IMG/VR virus record: IMGVR_UViG_3300034050_000128
Span: 1 to 21,624 of that record
Length of the DNA: 21,624 bases
Source of the DNA: a virus
Direction: 5' to 3' (one strand)
Shown: positions 3,311 to 14,316 of the stretch, piece by piece
Position numbering within the stretch: position 1 is the first letter of the stretch
Layout of the letters: each line of letters starts with the position of its first letter
Position numbers and translations under genes: made by a program
Notes under the pieces: model-generated
Databases searched by the model: none
What the model was told of the DNA's origin: nothing
The model's input: only the letters and a program-made list of their open reading frames with translations

Positions 3311-3964
3311 ATGGGTTACGCCGAACACGTTTCAGTAGACAGGATGAAAGAGGTTCTGTCGTACGATCCAGACACCGGGGAGTTCCGGTGGAAAACCAGC
3401 ACATCAAAAAAGTTCAAAAGCGGTCAGCTTGCCGGATCGGCCAAGCGCACCAGCCAATCAGCATCCCGACATGTTTATGTCCGAGTTGATGGCAAAGATA
3501 TCACCGCTTCTAGGGCTGCTTGGGTGCTTCATTTTGGAGAATGGCCTGCTTCAAGGCTTGGGTTCAAGAATGGGGACCGAGGCGACATCAGGATTGAAAA
3601 CATCTATGAGATGAACAGCCTCAACGAAGAATACTCCGACAAGGCTGATTACCTTAGGAAGCATCGCAATAAGTTCGGAAAGGTCTGGAAGGACACGCAC
3701 CTCAAGAGAAATTTTGGAATTTCACTTTCCGAATACTCTAAGATGGCAGCCGACCATGACCACAAGTGCGCCATCTGCGGAGAGCCTGAAAAGCAGGAGC
3801 GTGGCGGCAAAGTGAAGGCGCTGTCTGTCGATCACAACCACACCACCGGCGCTGTCCGGGGCCTGCTTTGCTCGGACTGCAATACCGGACTGGGGAAGCT
3901 CAGGGACAGCCAGACGCTCCTGCACGCCGCGATTGCCTACTTGGACAGACATGTGGTAAAGTAG
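3311..3964 (+). CDS. Homing-type nuclease: degenerate HNH half fused to endonuclease VII-like half
   Basis: A 217-residue protein behind GGGAGA. Residues about 15-100 resemble phage HNH proteins (YDPDTGEFRWK at 18-28, then RAAWVLHFGEWP), but the catalytic His of the usual 'DHxNGD' is absent: the sequence reads GFKNGD near 84-89, so this half may only bind DNA. Residues about 130-215 match recombination endonuclease VII (T4 gp49 type). It has zinc pairs C153/C156 and C187/C190, the catalytic-type D174-H175-N176-H177, and CNTGLG after the last Cys. The gene is A+T-richer than its neighbours and follows the capsid stop by 84 bases, typical of a free-standing homing endonuclease. A role as a Holliday-junction resolvase in DNA packaging is the alternative. 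Confidence 0.87.
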   Translation: MGYAEHVSVDRMKEVLSYDPDTGEFRWKTSTSKKFKSGQLAGSAKRTSQSASRHVYVRVDGKDITASRAAWVLHFGEWPASRLGFKNGDRGDIRIENIYEMNSLNEEYSDKADYLRKHRNKFGKVWKDTHLKRNFGISLSEYSKMAADHDHKCAICGEPEKQERGGKVKALSVDHNHTTGAVRGLLCSDCNTGLGKLRDSQTLLHAAIAYLDRHVVK

Positions 3965-4720: not shown

Positions 4721-4978
4721 ATGACCGCACCATATCTTACGGCAGATGCAACCGTTTCTGCCCGACGCGCAGCTGCCGTTGTGCCGAGCGACGCCACGCT
4801 TCTTCCCGATCCGACCCGTGGCCTGTACATCGGCAGCACTGGGAACGTGCGGGTCGACATGGTAAGCGGTGGGACAGTGACGTTCGCTGCGGTTCCGGCA
4901 GGCGTTTTGCTTCCAATTCAGGTCGAACGCGTCTACGCTACCGGGACCACTGCGACGAGCATTATCGCCCTTTACTGA
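4721..4978 (+). CDS. Spike base protein, RCAP_rcc01079-like
   Basis: An 85-residue protein behind TGGAG. The pattern matches the spike base family named after RCAP_rcc01079 of the Rhodobacter capsulatus gene transfer agent: an N-terminal helical part, then DPTRGLYIGSTGNVRVDM, then TVTFAAVPAGVLLPIQ and the ending VYATGTTATSIIALY. In RcGTA this protein sits on the capsid vertex and carries the head-spike fibre. Here two large genes with spike-fibre-like domains follow directly, the same base-then-fibre order as RcGTA. The family call is fairly confident from the 'LYxGxxGxxRV ... VPAGxxLP ... ATGTTATxIxAL' wording. Location on the head rather than elsewhere in this virion is inferred. Confidence 0.8.
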   Translation: MTAPYLTADATVSARRAAAVVPSDATLLPDPTRGLYIGSTGNVRVDMVSGGTVTFAAVPAGVLLPIQVERVYATGTTATSIIALY

Positions 4979-4988
4979 GGTACTGACC

Positions 4989-7247
4989 ATGTTTGTGGGG
5001 ATCAATCTCGGCATCAACCTGCGTAGCAGTGTCTCGTTCTCCCCATCTTCCCTCTTCGCCGCAGGAGAGCCCGGCGTATGGTTTGATCCTTCGGATGTCG
5101 CGAACCTGTCGTGGTTGGTCAACCTCCTCCAGTGGACGCAAGAGTTTGACAATGCCGTTTGGACGAAGAACATAGGAGGCATTGGCGGCACGCCGGTTGT
5201 GACGGCAAATGCCGGTGTTGCCCCTGACAGCACGTCAACAGCTGACCGCATACAGTTCACCCTAAACGGTGGAACAAGCACGGCTGACGTTTCGGACGTC
5301 AGACAGCTTTTTCTTTCTACCGCAGCGCCGTGTACTTTTTCCTTTTGGATAAAGTCGTTCGACGGATCGTCTAGCTATCAGATGCTTGTCCGCGATGGCA
5401 ACGGCTTCGTAAATCCAATAACCGTTACTGGAAGCTGGCAAAGGTACGCCGTTAGTTCGACTTTCGCTGTGCCAAATGGAACCTGTGGTTTTGGCATTAG
5501 GGGTGGGCAAGGCACTGTAAACAGCAACACGGCGGACGTGCTCGTCTGGGGCGCACAAGTCGAACTCGGCTCCGTAGCCACCACCTACCAGCCCATCACT
5601 ACAGTGGCCGCTGGCACCGATGCGCGCTTCCCGAATGCCACGCTGTACAGGGACACTGCGGGTACTAGCCCCGTGACGACCCCCGGCCAGACCGTGGCCC
5701 TGATGCTGGATAAGTCGCGGGGGCTGGCGCTGGGTAGCGAGTTGGTGACGACCGCATCCGGTGTTGTTACCACGGGAAGTTATACTCCGGGCGTTAGTGT
5801 GGTCGCAGGGAAAACGTACCTTTTTTCTTACACGATATCTGCAAACGTAGGAACCATGAGCGCTTCATGGCGCGTATTTTTCGCTGGTGGTCAACTTTAT
5901 GCTCCGAGCGTAAACATTGGTTTCAACGGCTCTGTGACTGCACGAGTTACGGCGCTTTCATCTGGCACCCTTACCCTAAGCCCAGACAGCGCTGGAACTA
6001 ACTTTTCCATCTCTAACGTATCTATCCGCGAACTCCCCGGCAACCACGCCACCCAAGCGACCCCGGCCAGCATGCCGACCTATGGCATCGTCCCGCGTGG
6101 TGGTAGGCGGAATATTTTGACCTTCTCGGAGCAGTTCGACAATGCCGCTTGGTCAAAGCTAAACGCAACCATCACTGCAAACAGTTCGGTTGCGCCAGAT
6201 GGAACTTCAACAGCCGACCTTGTATCGTCGACCGGCGGAGAGACGAGGGTTGGCCTGAACCCCGGCGTAGTGTTGCCAAGCACAACCTATACCGCAAGCA
6301 TGTTTGGGAAATACGCCAACGCCAACGGGAGATACCTGTGGTTTAGAGATTTTTTCTCTGGACGGGATGTTGGTTTCGACCTGCAAACCGGTGTTGTTAC
6401 CCAAGTGGCGTCCGGCATGACTGCCAGCGTAGTCCCTGCAGGTGAGGGGTTTTTCCGCTGCATAGTTAGCTGGACGACCCCCGCGACTGCGGTTGTGGCA
6501 AACCAGCAGTTTTGGGTGCTTTCGGCCTCTGGCACTAACCCATCTACCGGCCTCGCTGGCGGCCAGTTTTACCTCTGGGGCGCTCAAATCGAACAATCCA
6601 CCACCGCCACGTCCTACCAGCGGGTCGGGACTGAGTACGACGTCACGCAGGCCGGTGTTCCGTCGATGAGCTACATTCAGTTCAACGGCATCAACAACTC
6701 GATGGCGACTGGTACGATTACCCCCGGAACTGACAAGGTTCAGGTGTTTGCGGGGGTGCGGAAGCTCGCAAACGGCAACAACTCTTGCATCGTTGAATTG
6801 TCGGCAGTCGCGTCTTCCAATAACGGGGCATTCTACATTCTCACTGGAAGGAATGTTTCAGGCCCCGCTCCCGCTTATACTGCTTTGTCCAGAGGTACTG
6901 CATTTGTATCGCTCGACACGGCGGACTTGTACGATGCGCCGATAAGCAACCTCTTGACGCTTCTTAGCGACATCAGCGGCGACACCGCCAAACTGCGCGC
7001 AAACGGCACCCAAGTAGCCCAATCAACCGGCGACCAAGGCACCGGTAACTACCTTGCCTATCCGCTGTACGTCGGCTCCCGTGCGGGCTCCAGCCTCTAC
7101 TTCAACGGTCAGCTCTACAGCCTTATTGACCGCTTCGGGCCTAACCTCCCATCCAACACGATCACCAGCACTGAGGCGTGGGTTGCCGGGAAGACCGGGT
7201 TCTACCCGCCGATCATCACTGGTGTGCCCACGATAGGAGTAAGCTAA
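4989..7247 (+). CDS. Large multi-domain spike/fibre protein (first of two)
   Basis: A 752-residue protein, start supported by GAGG and the 10-base gap after the spike base gene. Rough layout: the opening of a module 'EPGVWFDPSD' (27-36); a phage head-spike-fibre-like domain (43-203, from WTQEFDNAVW to WGAQVELGS); the rest of the interrupted module (ATLYRDTAG to LMLDKS, 217-243); a beta-sandwich carbohydrate-binding-like domain ending NVSIREL (248-349); GNHATQATPASMPTYGIVP (351-369); a second spike-fibre-like domain (374-546, EQFDNAAW to WGAQIEQS); and a LamG-like beta domain (560-717, with ISGD and LYFNGQLY). The last 15 residues (PPIITGVPTIGVS) resemble the first strand of a bacterial Ig-like domain whose remainder starts the next gene. 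Likely role: glycan binding by head spikes. Tail attachment is the alternative. Confidence 0.8.
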   Translation: MFVGINLGINLRSSVSFSPSSLFAAGEPGVWFDPSDVANLSWLVNLLQWTQEFDNAVWTKNIGGIGGTPVVTANAGVAPDSTSTADRIQFTLNGGTSTADVSDVRQLFLSTAAPCTFSFWIKSFDGSSSYQMLVRDGNGFVNPITVTGSWQRYAVSSTFAVPNGTCGFGIRGGQGTVNSNTADVLVWGAQVELGSVATTYQPITTVAAGTDARFPNATLYRDTAGTSPVTTPGQTVALMLDKSRGLALGSELVTTASGVVTTGSYTPGVSVVAGKTYLFSYTISANVGTMSASWRVFFAGGQLYAPSVNIGFNGSVTARVTALSSGTLTLSPDSAGTNFSISNVSIRELPGNHATQATPASMPTYGIVPRGGRRNILTFSEQFDNAAWSKLNATITANSSVAPDGTSTADLVSSTGGETRVGLNPGVVLPSTTYTASMFGKYANANGRYLWFRDFFSGRDVGFDLQTGVVTQVASGMTASVVPAGEGFFRCIVSWTTPATAVVANQQFWVLSASGTNPSTGLAGGQFYLWGAQIEQSTTATSYQRVGTEYDVTQAGVPSMSYIQFNGINNSMATGTITPGTDKVQVFAGVRKLANGNNSCIVELSAVASSNNGAFYILTGRNVSGPAPAYTALSRGTAFVSLDTADLYDAPISNLLTLLSDISGDTAKLRANGTQVAQSTGDQGTGNYLAYPLYVGSRAGSSLYFNGQLYSLIDRFGPNLPSNTITSTEAWVAGKTGFYPPIITGVPTIGVS
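6074..6094 (+). repeat. 21-bp identity shared by the two spike-fibre genes
   Basis: A 21-base stretch is identical at 8088-8108 in the next gene. It encodes PTYGIVP in both and is followed by near-identical sequence for GGRRNI. It lies at the border between the 'NHA(T/V)QATPAS' segment and the following spike-fibre-like domain. Longer protein-level similarity between the genes surrounds it, so it is either conserved homology or a seam where domains have recombined. Confidence 0.75.
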
Positions 7248-7248
7248 T

Positions 7249-9186
7249 ATGGCTGTGTACGTTTCCGACCTCCTCACGGCCATCCCAGCGCCCGTGGATG
7301 TGGCTCCGGCGTCCACGACCACATGGCAGTGGCTGCGCTCGTCCACGACGCTCTCTGGGGCCACAGGCGGCACGTACACCGTTACAGATGCGGACCTCGG
7401 ATCGGCGCTGGCCGTCATCCAGACTGAGACGAACTTCCTTGGGTCGGCCTCGGCCACCAGCGCCAACACCGACGTCGTGCAGCCGTTCGATCCCAACGCC
7501 CTCTTCCGCTACTCCGAACCCGGCGTCTGGTTCGATCCGAATGACATTGGGACGTTGTACAAGGGAACCACGGGGCTGAACCCAGTCACCGCCCCCGGCG
7601 ACACTGTCAGCCTGATGCTGGACAAGTCGAAGGGCGGACCGGGCCCCGAATTGGTGGCGAACGGTAACTTCAGTAACCCTGTTACAACAGGGTGGGTGGC
7701 TGGCGGGAGCCCCCCTGCAACGCTGAGCGTTGTCCTTGAGGAGTTGAACATCAATACTGCAGCTGGGGTGAACTTTCCCGGCGCAAGCTACGCCTTCACC
7801 ACAATAGTTGGCCAGACGTACAGGGTGACACTGACGGCCCGGACAAACACTATAAACGCATCCTCTGTATACATCAGGGATATTGGCGGGAACTACGTTA
7901 CAAACCAGCCCAGCATCGGGACATCCAACACATCGTACGACTTTGTTTTCGTGGCTAGGCAGACAAGCTCAAACATATACATTTTTGAGTTCATTGGGTC
8001 CGCCGGAACGGGAACGATTTTTGCTGACAACATCAGCGTGCGTCAGCTGATCGGCAACCACGCCGTACAGGCCACTCCAGCCAGCCAGCCGACCTATGGC
8101 ATCGTCCCCGCAGGCGGCAGGCGGAATATTCTGCTTGAAAGCCAGCAGTTCGGCACACCGTCTTGGAGTACGGGGGCCGTGGTTATTTCTCCAGATAGCC
8201 AAATAGCTCCAGATGGAACTATGACCGCCGACACTGCAACCTACGCAGGGCAGTTCAACTCGATCAATCAGAGCGTGACGTTGGCCGCGAACACCTACAC
8301 GCTGTCTTACTGGCTCAAGGCTGGCACGGGCACAAACCCCTTGTTCTTTGGGTTTTTCAACGGGAGTTGGAACACGGGGCCATCAGCCACACCTACTTCA
8401 AGCTGGGTTCGCCACTCTTACACGTTCACCTCTGCCCTTGCTGTAACGCAAATTCTGATAGCCCAAGACAGAGCCGCCTCCGGCTTCGGTTCGGCATACA
8501 TCTGGGGTGCACAGCTAGAGCAATCTACCCTCATGACCGACTACCAGCGCGTCACCACAGAGTACGACGTCACAGAAGCTGGTGTCCCGTCCTTGGGCTA
8601 CCTCCAGTTCAACGGCGTGAGCAACTCGATGGCGACGGGTACGATCACGCCGGGCATCGACAAGGCTCAGGTGTTTGCGGGCGTGCGGAAAATTGTTGAT
8701 GTTCCACCGGGGATGATTTCAGAGTTCGGCCCAAATGTGAACTTCAACAATGGGGCTTTTGCCTTCCTTTATGGCGACGCGGCGGGCAGGTTGTGGTCGT
8801 TCGTCCCAAAGGGAACCGTTATAGGCCCGGTCGGCATTTCCGTTGCAGCGCCAAACACAGCCGTTTTGACCGGGACTGCAGACATCTCTGGCGATCTAAC
8901 CGTCATTCGGAGGAACGGTGTGGTTGGCGCAACCTCAAGCGCGGACCTCGGAACCGGAAACTTCCTCGCCTATCCGCTCTATATTGGTGCCCGCAACGGG
9001 GCGGATGTCTACCTCAACGGCCAACTCTTCCCGCTGATCGTGCGCTTTGGATCGAACTTGACCGCAGCGCGCATCACGTCCACTGAAAACTGGATGGCAT
9101 CGCAGACGCCGCTGCAGTGGACTGTTGGCGCGGGCTTCTGGAATGACGCCTACCCGTGGTCAGATATCTCCGCTTGGAGAGACTAA
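7249..9186 (+). CDS. Large multi-domain spike/fibre protein (second of two)
   Basis: A 645-residue paralogue of the previous gene. Its ATG comes one base after the previous stop (TAATATG), and AGGAG at 7235-7239, inside the previous gene, gives a 9-base spacer. Layout: Ig-like domain (1-75, WQWLRS, GATGGTYTVTDADLG, SASATS) that seems to lack its first strand; 'EPGVWFDPNDIGTLYKG ... LMLDKS' (90-127), here uninterrupted; a carbohydrate-binding-like domain (133-266, ELVANGNFSNPVTTGW to NISVRQL); NHAVQATPASQPTYGIVP (270-287); a spike-fibre-like domain (291-434, to WGAQLEQS); a LamG-like domain (447-600); and a Trp-rich tail (615-645). Probably an alternative or partner spike fibre for receptor or capsule glycans. 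Its stop overlaps a 17-codon ORF (TAATG). Confidence 0.8.
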   Translation: MAVYVSDLLTAIPAPVDVAPASTTTWQWLRSSTTLSGATGGTYTVTDADLGSALAVIQTETNFLGSASATSANTDVVQPFDPNALFRYSEPGVWFDPNDIGTLYKGTTGLNPVTAPGDTVSLMLDKSKGGPGPELVANGNFSNPVTTGWVAGGSPPATLSVVLEELNINTAAGVNFPGASYAFTTIVGQTYRVTLTARTNTINASSVYIRDIGGNYVTNQPSIGTSNTSYDFVFVARQTSSNIYIFEFIGSAGTGTIFADNISVRQLIGNHAVQATPASQPTYGIVPAGGRRNILLESQQFGTPSWSTGAVVISPDSQIAPDGTMTADTATYAGQFNSINQSVTLAANTYTLSYWLKAGTGTNPLFFGFFNGSWNTGPSATPTSSWVRHSYTFTSALAVTQILIAQDRAASGFGSAYIWGAQLEQSTLMTDYQRVTTEYDVTEAGVPSLGYLQFNGVSNSMATGTITPGIDKAQVFAGVRKIVDVPPGMISEFGPNVNFNNGAFAFLYGDAAGRLWSFVPKGTVIGPVGISVAAPNTAVLTGTADISGDLTVIRRNGVVGATSSADLGTGNFLAYPLYIGARNGADVYLNGQLFPLIVRFGSNLTAARITSTENWMASQTPLQWTVGAGFWNDAYPWSDISAWRD

Positions 9187-13575: not shown

Positions 13576-14316
13576 ATGTTTTATGTCTATGAGCACTGGA
13601 GGCCCGACCGAGACGAGTGCTTCTACGTCGGCAAAGGCATGGGCGGACGCGCAAACAAGATGCGCGACAGGAACCTGCACCACAGGGCTATCGTGAAGAA
13701 GCTGTCTGCCTTGGGCATGGCGGTGGAAGTCCGCATGGTCGCAACTGGTCTGGACGAAGAAACCGCTTTCGAGATTGAGGTGGAGCGCATCGCTTTTTGG
13801 CGTGCAGCTGGCATCGATCTGGCCAACAAGACCAACGGCGGCGATGGCGTGAGCGGGCTTCCCGCTTACAATAGAAAGCCAGTAATTTCTCTTGAAACAG
13901 GTGAAATATTCGAAAGCGCATCTGCAGCGGGAAGAAGATTTAACATTCTAGGAAGCAGCGTGGCTGAAGCGTGCTCAGGTAGGTCGGAAGCCGCCAGCGG
14001 TCTTAGATTTGCCTACATTTGCTCCCCGCACTTGGCAAAAGACCCGGTGGAGCAGGCGAGGAAGAGAAAAAAGTCAACCTCTAACAGCACAAACACCGTA
14101 ATAGAGAACGGCAGAGACAGGATAGGTAGGTCTGCAGCTGGCCCAGCCTCTGCTTCTAGGATGGTTGTGTGTGTTGACACTGGTGACGTCTTCCCGTCAG
14201 CAAGCGCAGCAGCGAAGCACTTCGATGTGTGCAAAAGTTCCTTGATTGAGCTATGTTTGGGAAAAAATGGACGCCGCAGGGTTGGCGGACTTGTCTTTAA
14301 GTATGGAGACACCTGA
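13576..14316 (+). CDS. GIY-YIG homing endonuclease with two NUMOD1-like modules
   Basis: A 246-residue protein. The nuclease domain is at residues 1-93: FYVYEH (3-8) stands for the GIY strand, FYVGKG (16-21) for YIG, R25 fits the catalytic Arg, E68 or E70 in FEIEVERIAFW the metal-binding Glu, and KTNGGDG (85-91) the conserved Asn region. Two similar DNA-binding-like modules follow, 101-148 (PVISLETGEIFESASAAGRRF) and 195-243 (CVDTGDVFPSASAAAKHF), each a short beta piece plus helix-turn-helix, joined by a basic, Ser-rich linker. Such free-standing genes spread between phages by cutting unoccupied sites. Codon use turns A/T-richer after about 13860, so the two halves may differ in origin. The stop overlaps the next ATG (TGATG). 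Confidence 0.88.
   Translation: MFYVYEHWRPDRDECFYVGKGMGGRANKMRDRNLHHRAIVKKLSALGMAVEVRMVATGLDEETAFEIEVERIAFWRAAGIDLANKTNGGDGVSGLPAYNRKPVISLETGEIFESASAAGRRFNILGSSVAEACSGRSEAASGLRFAYICSPHLAKDPVEQARKRKKSTSNSTNTVIENGRDRIGRSAAGPASASRMVVCVDTGDVFPSASAAAKHFDVCKSSLIELCLGKNGRRRVGGLVFKYGDT

Follow-up and report, generated by a model that had tools for sequence, protein, structure and literature searches.

The RcGTA head spike is built from a base protein, Rcc01079, and a fibre, Rcc01080, with one fibre chain of 325 aa per spike. The fibre peptide IALGLGLGL plugs into five base subunits (PMC7296036), and the head fibres bind the host capsule (PMC10218006). In the T5-like phages DT57C/DT571-2, the lateral tail fibre is made of two proteins, LtfA and LtfB, where T5 has a single one. 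Only LtfA carries an anchor to the virion, and LtfB depends on LtfA for its attachment (PMC4728585). In SPP1 gp17.1*, a whole FN3 (Ig-like) domain is added by frameshift (PMC8718954). A search of open papers returned no described phage fibre pair that is divided inside one Ig domain. In chaperone-usher pili, an Ig-like domain without strand G is completed by an N-terminal extension that the next subunit contributes.

The locus described here resembles the RcGTA head spike in having a base gene followed by an anchored fibre gene of the NF048003 family, and differs from it in a second, anchorless fibre gene and in one Ig-like domain shared between the two. Like the DT57C-type fibre, it distributes over two proteins what can be one; LtfA/LtfB form a tail fibre, however, and a split shared Ig domain is not described in the accessible part of that source (PMC4728585). 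As with gp17.1*, an Ig-like domain lies at the boundary of a phage structural gene (PMC8718954), but here the domain itself is cut and a start codon stands at the cut. Structure models suggest that, as in the pili, an incomplete Ig domain would gain a strand from another subunit. Unlike in the pili, the strands in question are A/A', and they are predicted to come from the C-terminus of the subunit that precedes. The annotated genes of the window include neither a chaperone nor an usher gene.

Head-spike genes of the window

The window, i.e. the whole stretch of DNA that was analysed, is a viral fragment of 21,624 bases (IMGVR_UViG_3300034050_000128, positions 1-21,624). All features of the fibre locus given below lie on the + strand. 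The gene for the head-spike base protein (4721-4978; Rcc01079 family, NF048002), the putative fibre anchor, scored above the curated NCBIfam cut-off (E 8.4e-26). Gene A (4989-7247, 752 aa) lies 3' of it and matches NF048003 GTA_spike_fiber above the cut-off (E 2.5e-52); it is followed by gene B (7249-9186, 645 aa), which matches the same family, also above the cut-off (E 2.7e-22). A is the candidate proximal and B the candidate distal, anchorless fibre. The two are paralogues with 41% identity over 556 aa, which suggests that a tandem duplication, in addition to the splitting of the linking Ig domain, probably gave rise to the pair.

The base gene was present in 23 loci, including the window, locus L098 and Rhodovulum pRSMBB, and wherever the following gene was listed, a fibre gene came directly next. 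Because the base gene precedes them and both carry NF048003, genes A and B are, on profile and gene-order evidence, capsid head-spike fibre genes of the RcGTA type. A preliminary description of this DNA had labelled them spike genes; the label holds in that they encode spikes, which belong to the capsid head and not to the tail.

The N-terminus of gene A, MFVGINLGINL (4989-5024; V-x-I-x-L-x-I-x-L), has an alternating-hydrophobic score of 5, equal to that of the RcGTA peptide. Scores of 4 or 5 were obtained for 17 of 18 A-type N-termini and a score of 1 for the starts of all five B genes (window and four relatives). Since the anchor peptide occurs in A and is absent from B, the A product should be able to attach to the base, while the B product apparently cannot.

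The C-terminal end of gene B (9104-9186) is Trp-rich, QWTVGAGFWNDAYPWSDISAWRD, and a similar end is found on a fibre gene of locus L040; in both cases the next gene is seemingly another fibre. Elsewhere in the window, an HNH / endonuclease VII gene (3311-3964; Pfam PF02945, E 2.6e-23) separates the major capsid gene from the structural gene that comes next and is likely of the mobile homing type. A GIY-YIG endonuclease-like gene (13576-14316), with weak NUMOD1 and I-TevI DNA-binding matches and inserted 3' of a structural gene, is likely a second homing endonuclease.

Division of an Ig-like domain at the junction

Gene A ends with GFYPPIITGVPTIGVS and the stop codon TAA (7245-7247). The ATG of gene B follows at 7249-7251, so that the junction reads TAATATG (7245-7251): stop, one base, start. 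The B product begins MAVYVSDLLTAIPAPV...TTWQWLRSS (the start is also given as MAVYVSDLLTAIPAPVDVAPASTTTWQWLRSS). The C-terminal tail of A, PPIITGVPTIGVS (7206-7244), corresponds to Ig strands A and A', while the N-terminus of B (7249-7482) corresponds to the remainder of the domain, from strand B to strand G; these assignments come from the profile and structure models described below. A putative ribosome-binding site, AGGAG (7235-7239), lies within the codons of strand A', 9 nt from the ATG. These details, including the +1 relation of the two frames and a B frame that is open upstream only to 7243, had been read correctly in the preliminary description.

The same cut in other uncultured viruses

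The same arrangement was found in L006 (IMGVR_UViG_3300024346_004637), L095 (3300043436_000264), L098 (3300045135_000900) and L104 (3300044675_000943), giving five split loci with the window, all of them metagenomic. In the four relatives the cut is at the identical residue, and stop and start overlap by 1 nt in TRATG (TGATG or TAATG). Across the relatives the first gene ends with the motif P-[IV]-I-[ST]-G-x-P-T-[IV]-G-V-S and the second starts with M-[AS]-[VL]-Y, followed by [LI]-L-T-A-T ... WQW. A sixth contig, L105, whose edge lies within the same B-type start, is consistent with the cut. The earlier claim that two genes are divided inside one Ig-like domain is thus borne out by recurrence of the cut, with which profile and structure models agree.

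Across the split contigs the B N-terminus is 47-62% identical to the L006 copy. The gene neighbourhoods differ (MCP-base-A-B, terminase-A-B, A-B-portal, and MCP-base-fibre-fibre-B), and this variability indicates that the A-B pair travels as a module. In L098 the first partner has the same tail, on a body that is only distantly similar to the rest (31% over 125 aa, tail included). Gene A of L006 contains an in-frame stop (L006:3587-3589) beyond which homology resumes, possibly a sequencing error.

Among 48 distinct fibre-gene ends the tail was found in three (window A, L006 and L095), and exactly these three precede a partial Ig domain. The co-occurrence (3/3 vs 0/45) has a probability of 1 in 17,296 by chance. 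Substitutions in the tails of the five loci are predominantly synonymous (pN 0.07-0.29 vs pS 0.31-0.77); the last Ser, for example, is constant while its codon varies between AGC, AGT, TCG and TCC. In a tree of the Ig domains the five split copies cluster together (support 92/95), as they do in 90% of bootstrap trees, which points to a single split, retained since.

Searches with a broad tail-plus-TRATG pattern returned 17 stretches, made up of the four known loci and unrelated sequences; in the latter the following frame held no Ig domain. Locus L099 was rejected as a chance match to the pattern. An initial, stricter tail pattern gave no matches because it was too strict, a short-peptide scan with the first 84 aa of B found no relatives, and a scan of genome contigs for which the fused peptide served as query yielded nothing but distant Ig repeats of Nocardioides.

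Unsplit homologues and profile comparisons

Homologues with a continuous Ig domain exist, as expected if, as previously suggested, one fibre has been divided in mid-domain. L114 encodes one chain in which an anchor-like start (MALGLKIGL) is followed by a body, the same Ig domain and a C-terminal domain. In L106 a head-spike fibre (NF048003, E 6e-51) continues directly into the complete Ig domain, and a continuous relative of it occurs in the fibre of Rhodovulum pRSMBB, whose gene adjoins a base gene. Continuous copies or repeats are also found in L107, L109, L112 and L115. When aligned, the loop reads ITGVPTI-SGT-LYEGNTLTAT in its continuous form and ITGVPTI-GVS / MA-LYVSDLLTAT in its split form.

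An HMM built from unsplit Ig domains only placed the A tail at positions 1-9 and B at positions 15-88. Joining the tail to B raised the score in all five loci, by only 3-9 bits per tail. In comparisons with 200 shuffled tails, the fusion scored higher every time in the window and 199 times for the other four loci together. At the Pfam gathering score neither the fused peptide nor B alone gave a match, and the unsplit relatives match Ig_3 / IG_AIR9 below the cut-off. When the fused peptide was scanned with Pfam and PHROG profiles, the matches stopped short of the tail.

Structure models

For modelling, the two pieces were fused by reading TAAT as one step (Asn), a device that implies no frameshift. 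The AlphaFold model of the joined 100 residues reached a pLDDT of 93.6 and a pTM of 0.84 and placed gene A strands at YPPII and TIG (residues 3-7 and 12-14), whereas B alone gave a pLDDT of 86.5 and a pTM of 0.74, without the A/A' strands, with strand G lost and with a pLDDT of 60 at the C-terminal end; both models were calculated from alignments of only 20-21 rows. Foldseek matched the joined model to Ig domains (best E 1.0e-3, prob 1.00), and B alone also matched Ig folds. The joined pieces are thus predicted to form a two-sheet Ig sandwich. Given the moderate confidence of its model and its Ig matches, B alone might also fold unaided.

The comparison of B alone with the fusion, which had been proposed as a check, yielded no complete Ig fold for B alone. 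Neither of the outcomes that would have spoken against the division, i.e. a lack of fused homologues or a complete Ig fold in B alone, was found.

Translation of the junction

The sequence GGAG is found in all five loci, 7 nt 5' of the ATG in four of them and 9 nt in the window. Together with the overlapping or abutting stop and start codons, this conservation fits the working ribosome site that had been proposed. Within strand A', the codons for Gly-Val make up GGAG, and the Gly codon is GGA in 5/5 loci, although GGA accounts for 9-19% of Gly codons (product of the usages, 4e-5). The invariant GGA, the Ser kept across different codons and pN below pS indicate a double constraint on these nucleotides, from the protein that they encode and from the ribosome site that they form. 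A 1-nt overlap is characteristic of termination-reinitiation and is over-represented in genes that encode heteromeric subunits (PMC10666635). With its short overlap or abutting stop and start and its Shine-Dalgarno sequence, the A-B junction fits a translationally coupled gene pair.

Discussion

We consider it probable that A and B are two chains made by coupled translation, that the terminal strand of A completes the Ig domain of B and thereby attaches B to the capsid via A, and that the arrangement goes back to a single ancestral split. The A product would be anchored in the base pentamer through its N-terminal peptide. Ribosomes ending A would reinitiate on B, so that the chains would be made side by side, and the terminal A strand would complete the otherwise incomplete Ig domain of B in a donor-strand-like, non-covalent manner. 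B, attached to the capsid via A, would extend the fibre with further sugar-binding-like domains. The split would have arisen once from a continuous domain and been kept by selection while fibre bodies and gene neighbourhoods changed. The main argument for a meeting of the two parts in the virion is that tail and partial domain, each incomplete alone, are jointly conserved. As the head fibres of RcGTA bind the capsule, a fibre lengthened to two chains would bring in a second adhesin.

If the junction were instead a relic of gene fission, the proteins would be separate and the Ig pieces would not bind; the Ig domain of B would fold alone or be a loose linker, and the A tail would be passive. The pLDDT and the Ig matches of B alone are compatible with this account, but we regard it as unlikely, since the tail has been kept in five loci despite synonymous turnover and strictly co-occurs with the partial Ig domain, and since B, being without a base anchor, would need another attachment. 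Alternatively, the A strand could complete the Ig domain between neighbouring spikes or that of free B, resulting in a cross-link or a decoy and not in a linear fibre. The same sequence evidence would apply, and an RcGTA head bears eleven spikes, with a single fibre on each base pentamer (PMC7296036); the coupling of the genes and their 1:1 complementary ends nevertheless favour a pair made together, and such an arrangement appears very unlikely.

A programmed frameshift, giving an A-B fusion with a continuous Ig domain in some copies as in SPP1 gp17.1*, would have a precedent in the Ig-like extensions known to arise in this way in phages (PMC8718954), and the Shine-Dalgarno sequence of the window lies 2 nt 5' of AGC TAA. 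Yet the frame relation from A to B is +1 in the window and +2 in the other four loci, no slippery heptamer X XXY YYZ occurs in the last 20 codons of the A genes, and the downstream RNA fold, as a possible stimulator, was not consistently more stable than shuffled sequences (z -1.3 to +1.5). These observations argue against frameshifting, as does the ATG retained exactly at the cut in 5/5 loci, and we judge it highly improbable. That a sequencing or assembly error split one gene could be suspected of a metagenomic contig, given also the suspicious internal stop elsewhere in gene A of L006. The probability of this is virtually nil; the same cut, ATG and GGAG recur in five independent contigs with two frame relations, which refutes it. 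The A/B split is confirmed as real, more than chance and not a sequencing error.

Donation of a first strand at gene boundaries might, although we regard this as rather unlikely, be a general way of building multi-chain head fibres in these phages. L098 has a third fibre gene, at whose junction, TAATATGG, another kind of beta domain may be cut behind its first strand. Each chain would then end with the first beta strand of the first domain of the next chain, and anchorless adhesin genes would thereby be swappable or stackable. Besides the A-B junction, a fibre-fibre junction was noted in L098 (5118-5260, GTGTAATATGGCTGG), where one gene ends ...PSLSLTFDGASTSFTDSGMVV and the next starts MAGINRTTGKATDLITFSRAS; by eye these resemble the first strand and the remainder of another beta domain.

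If the two-chain fibre is correct, its Ig domain would be a natural, genetically encoded split-Ig coupler on a virus capsid appendage, and a possible peptide/domain pair for protein coupling in the laboratory. The co-translational assembly of coupled genes would become directly testable. The coding sequence would double as beta strand and ribosome-binding site, and the arrangement would account for the attachment of a second adhesin, itself without an anchor, to a spike with only one anchoring site.
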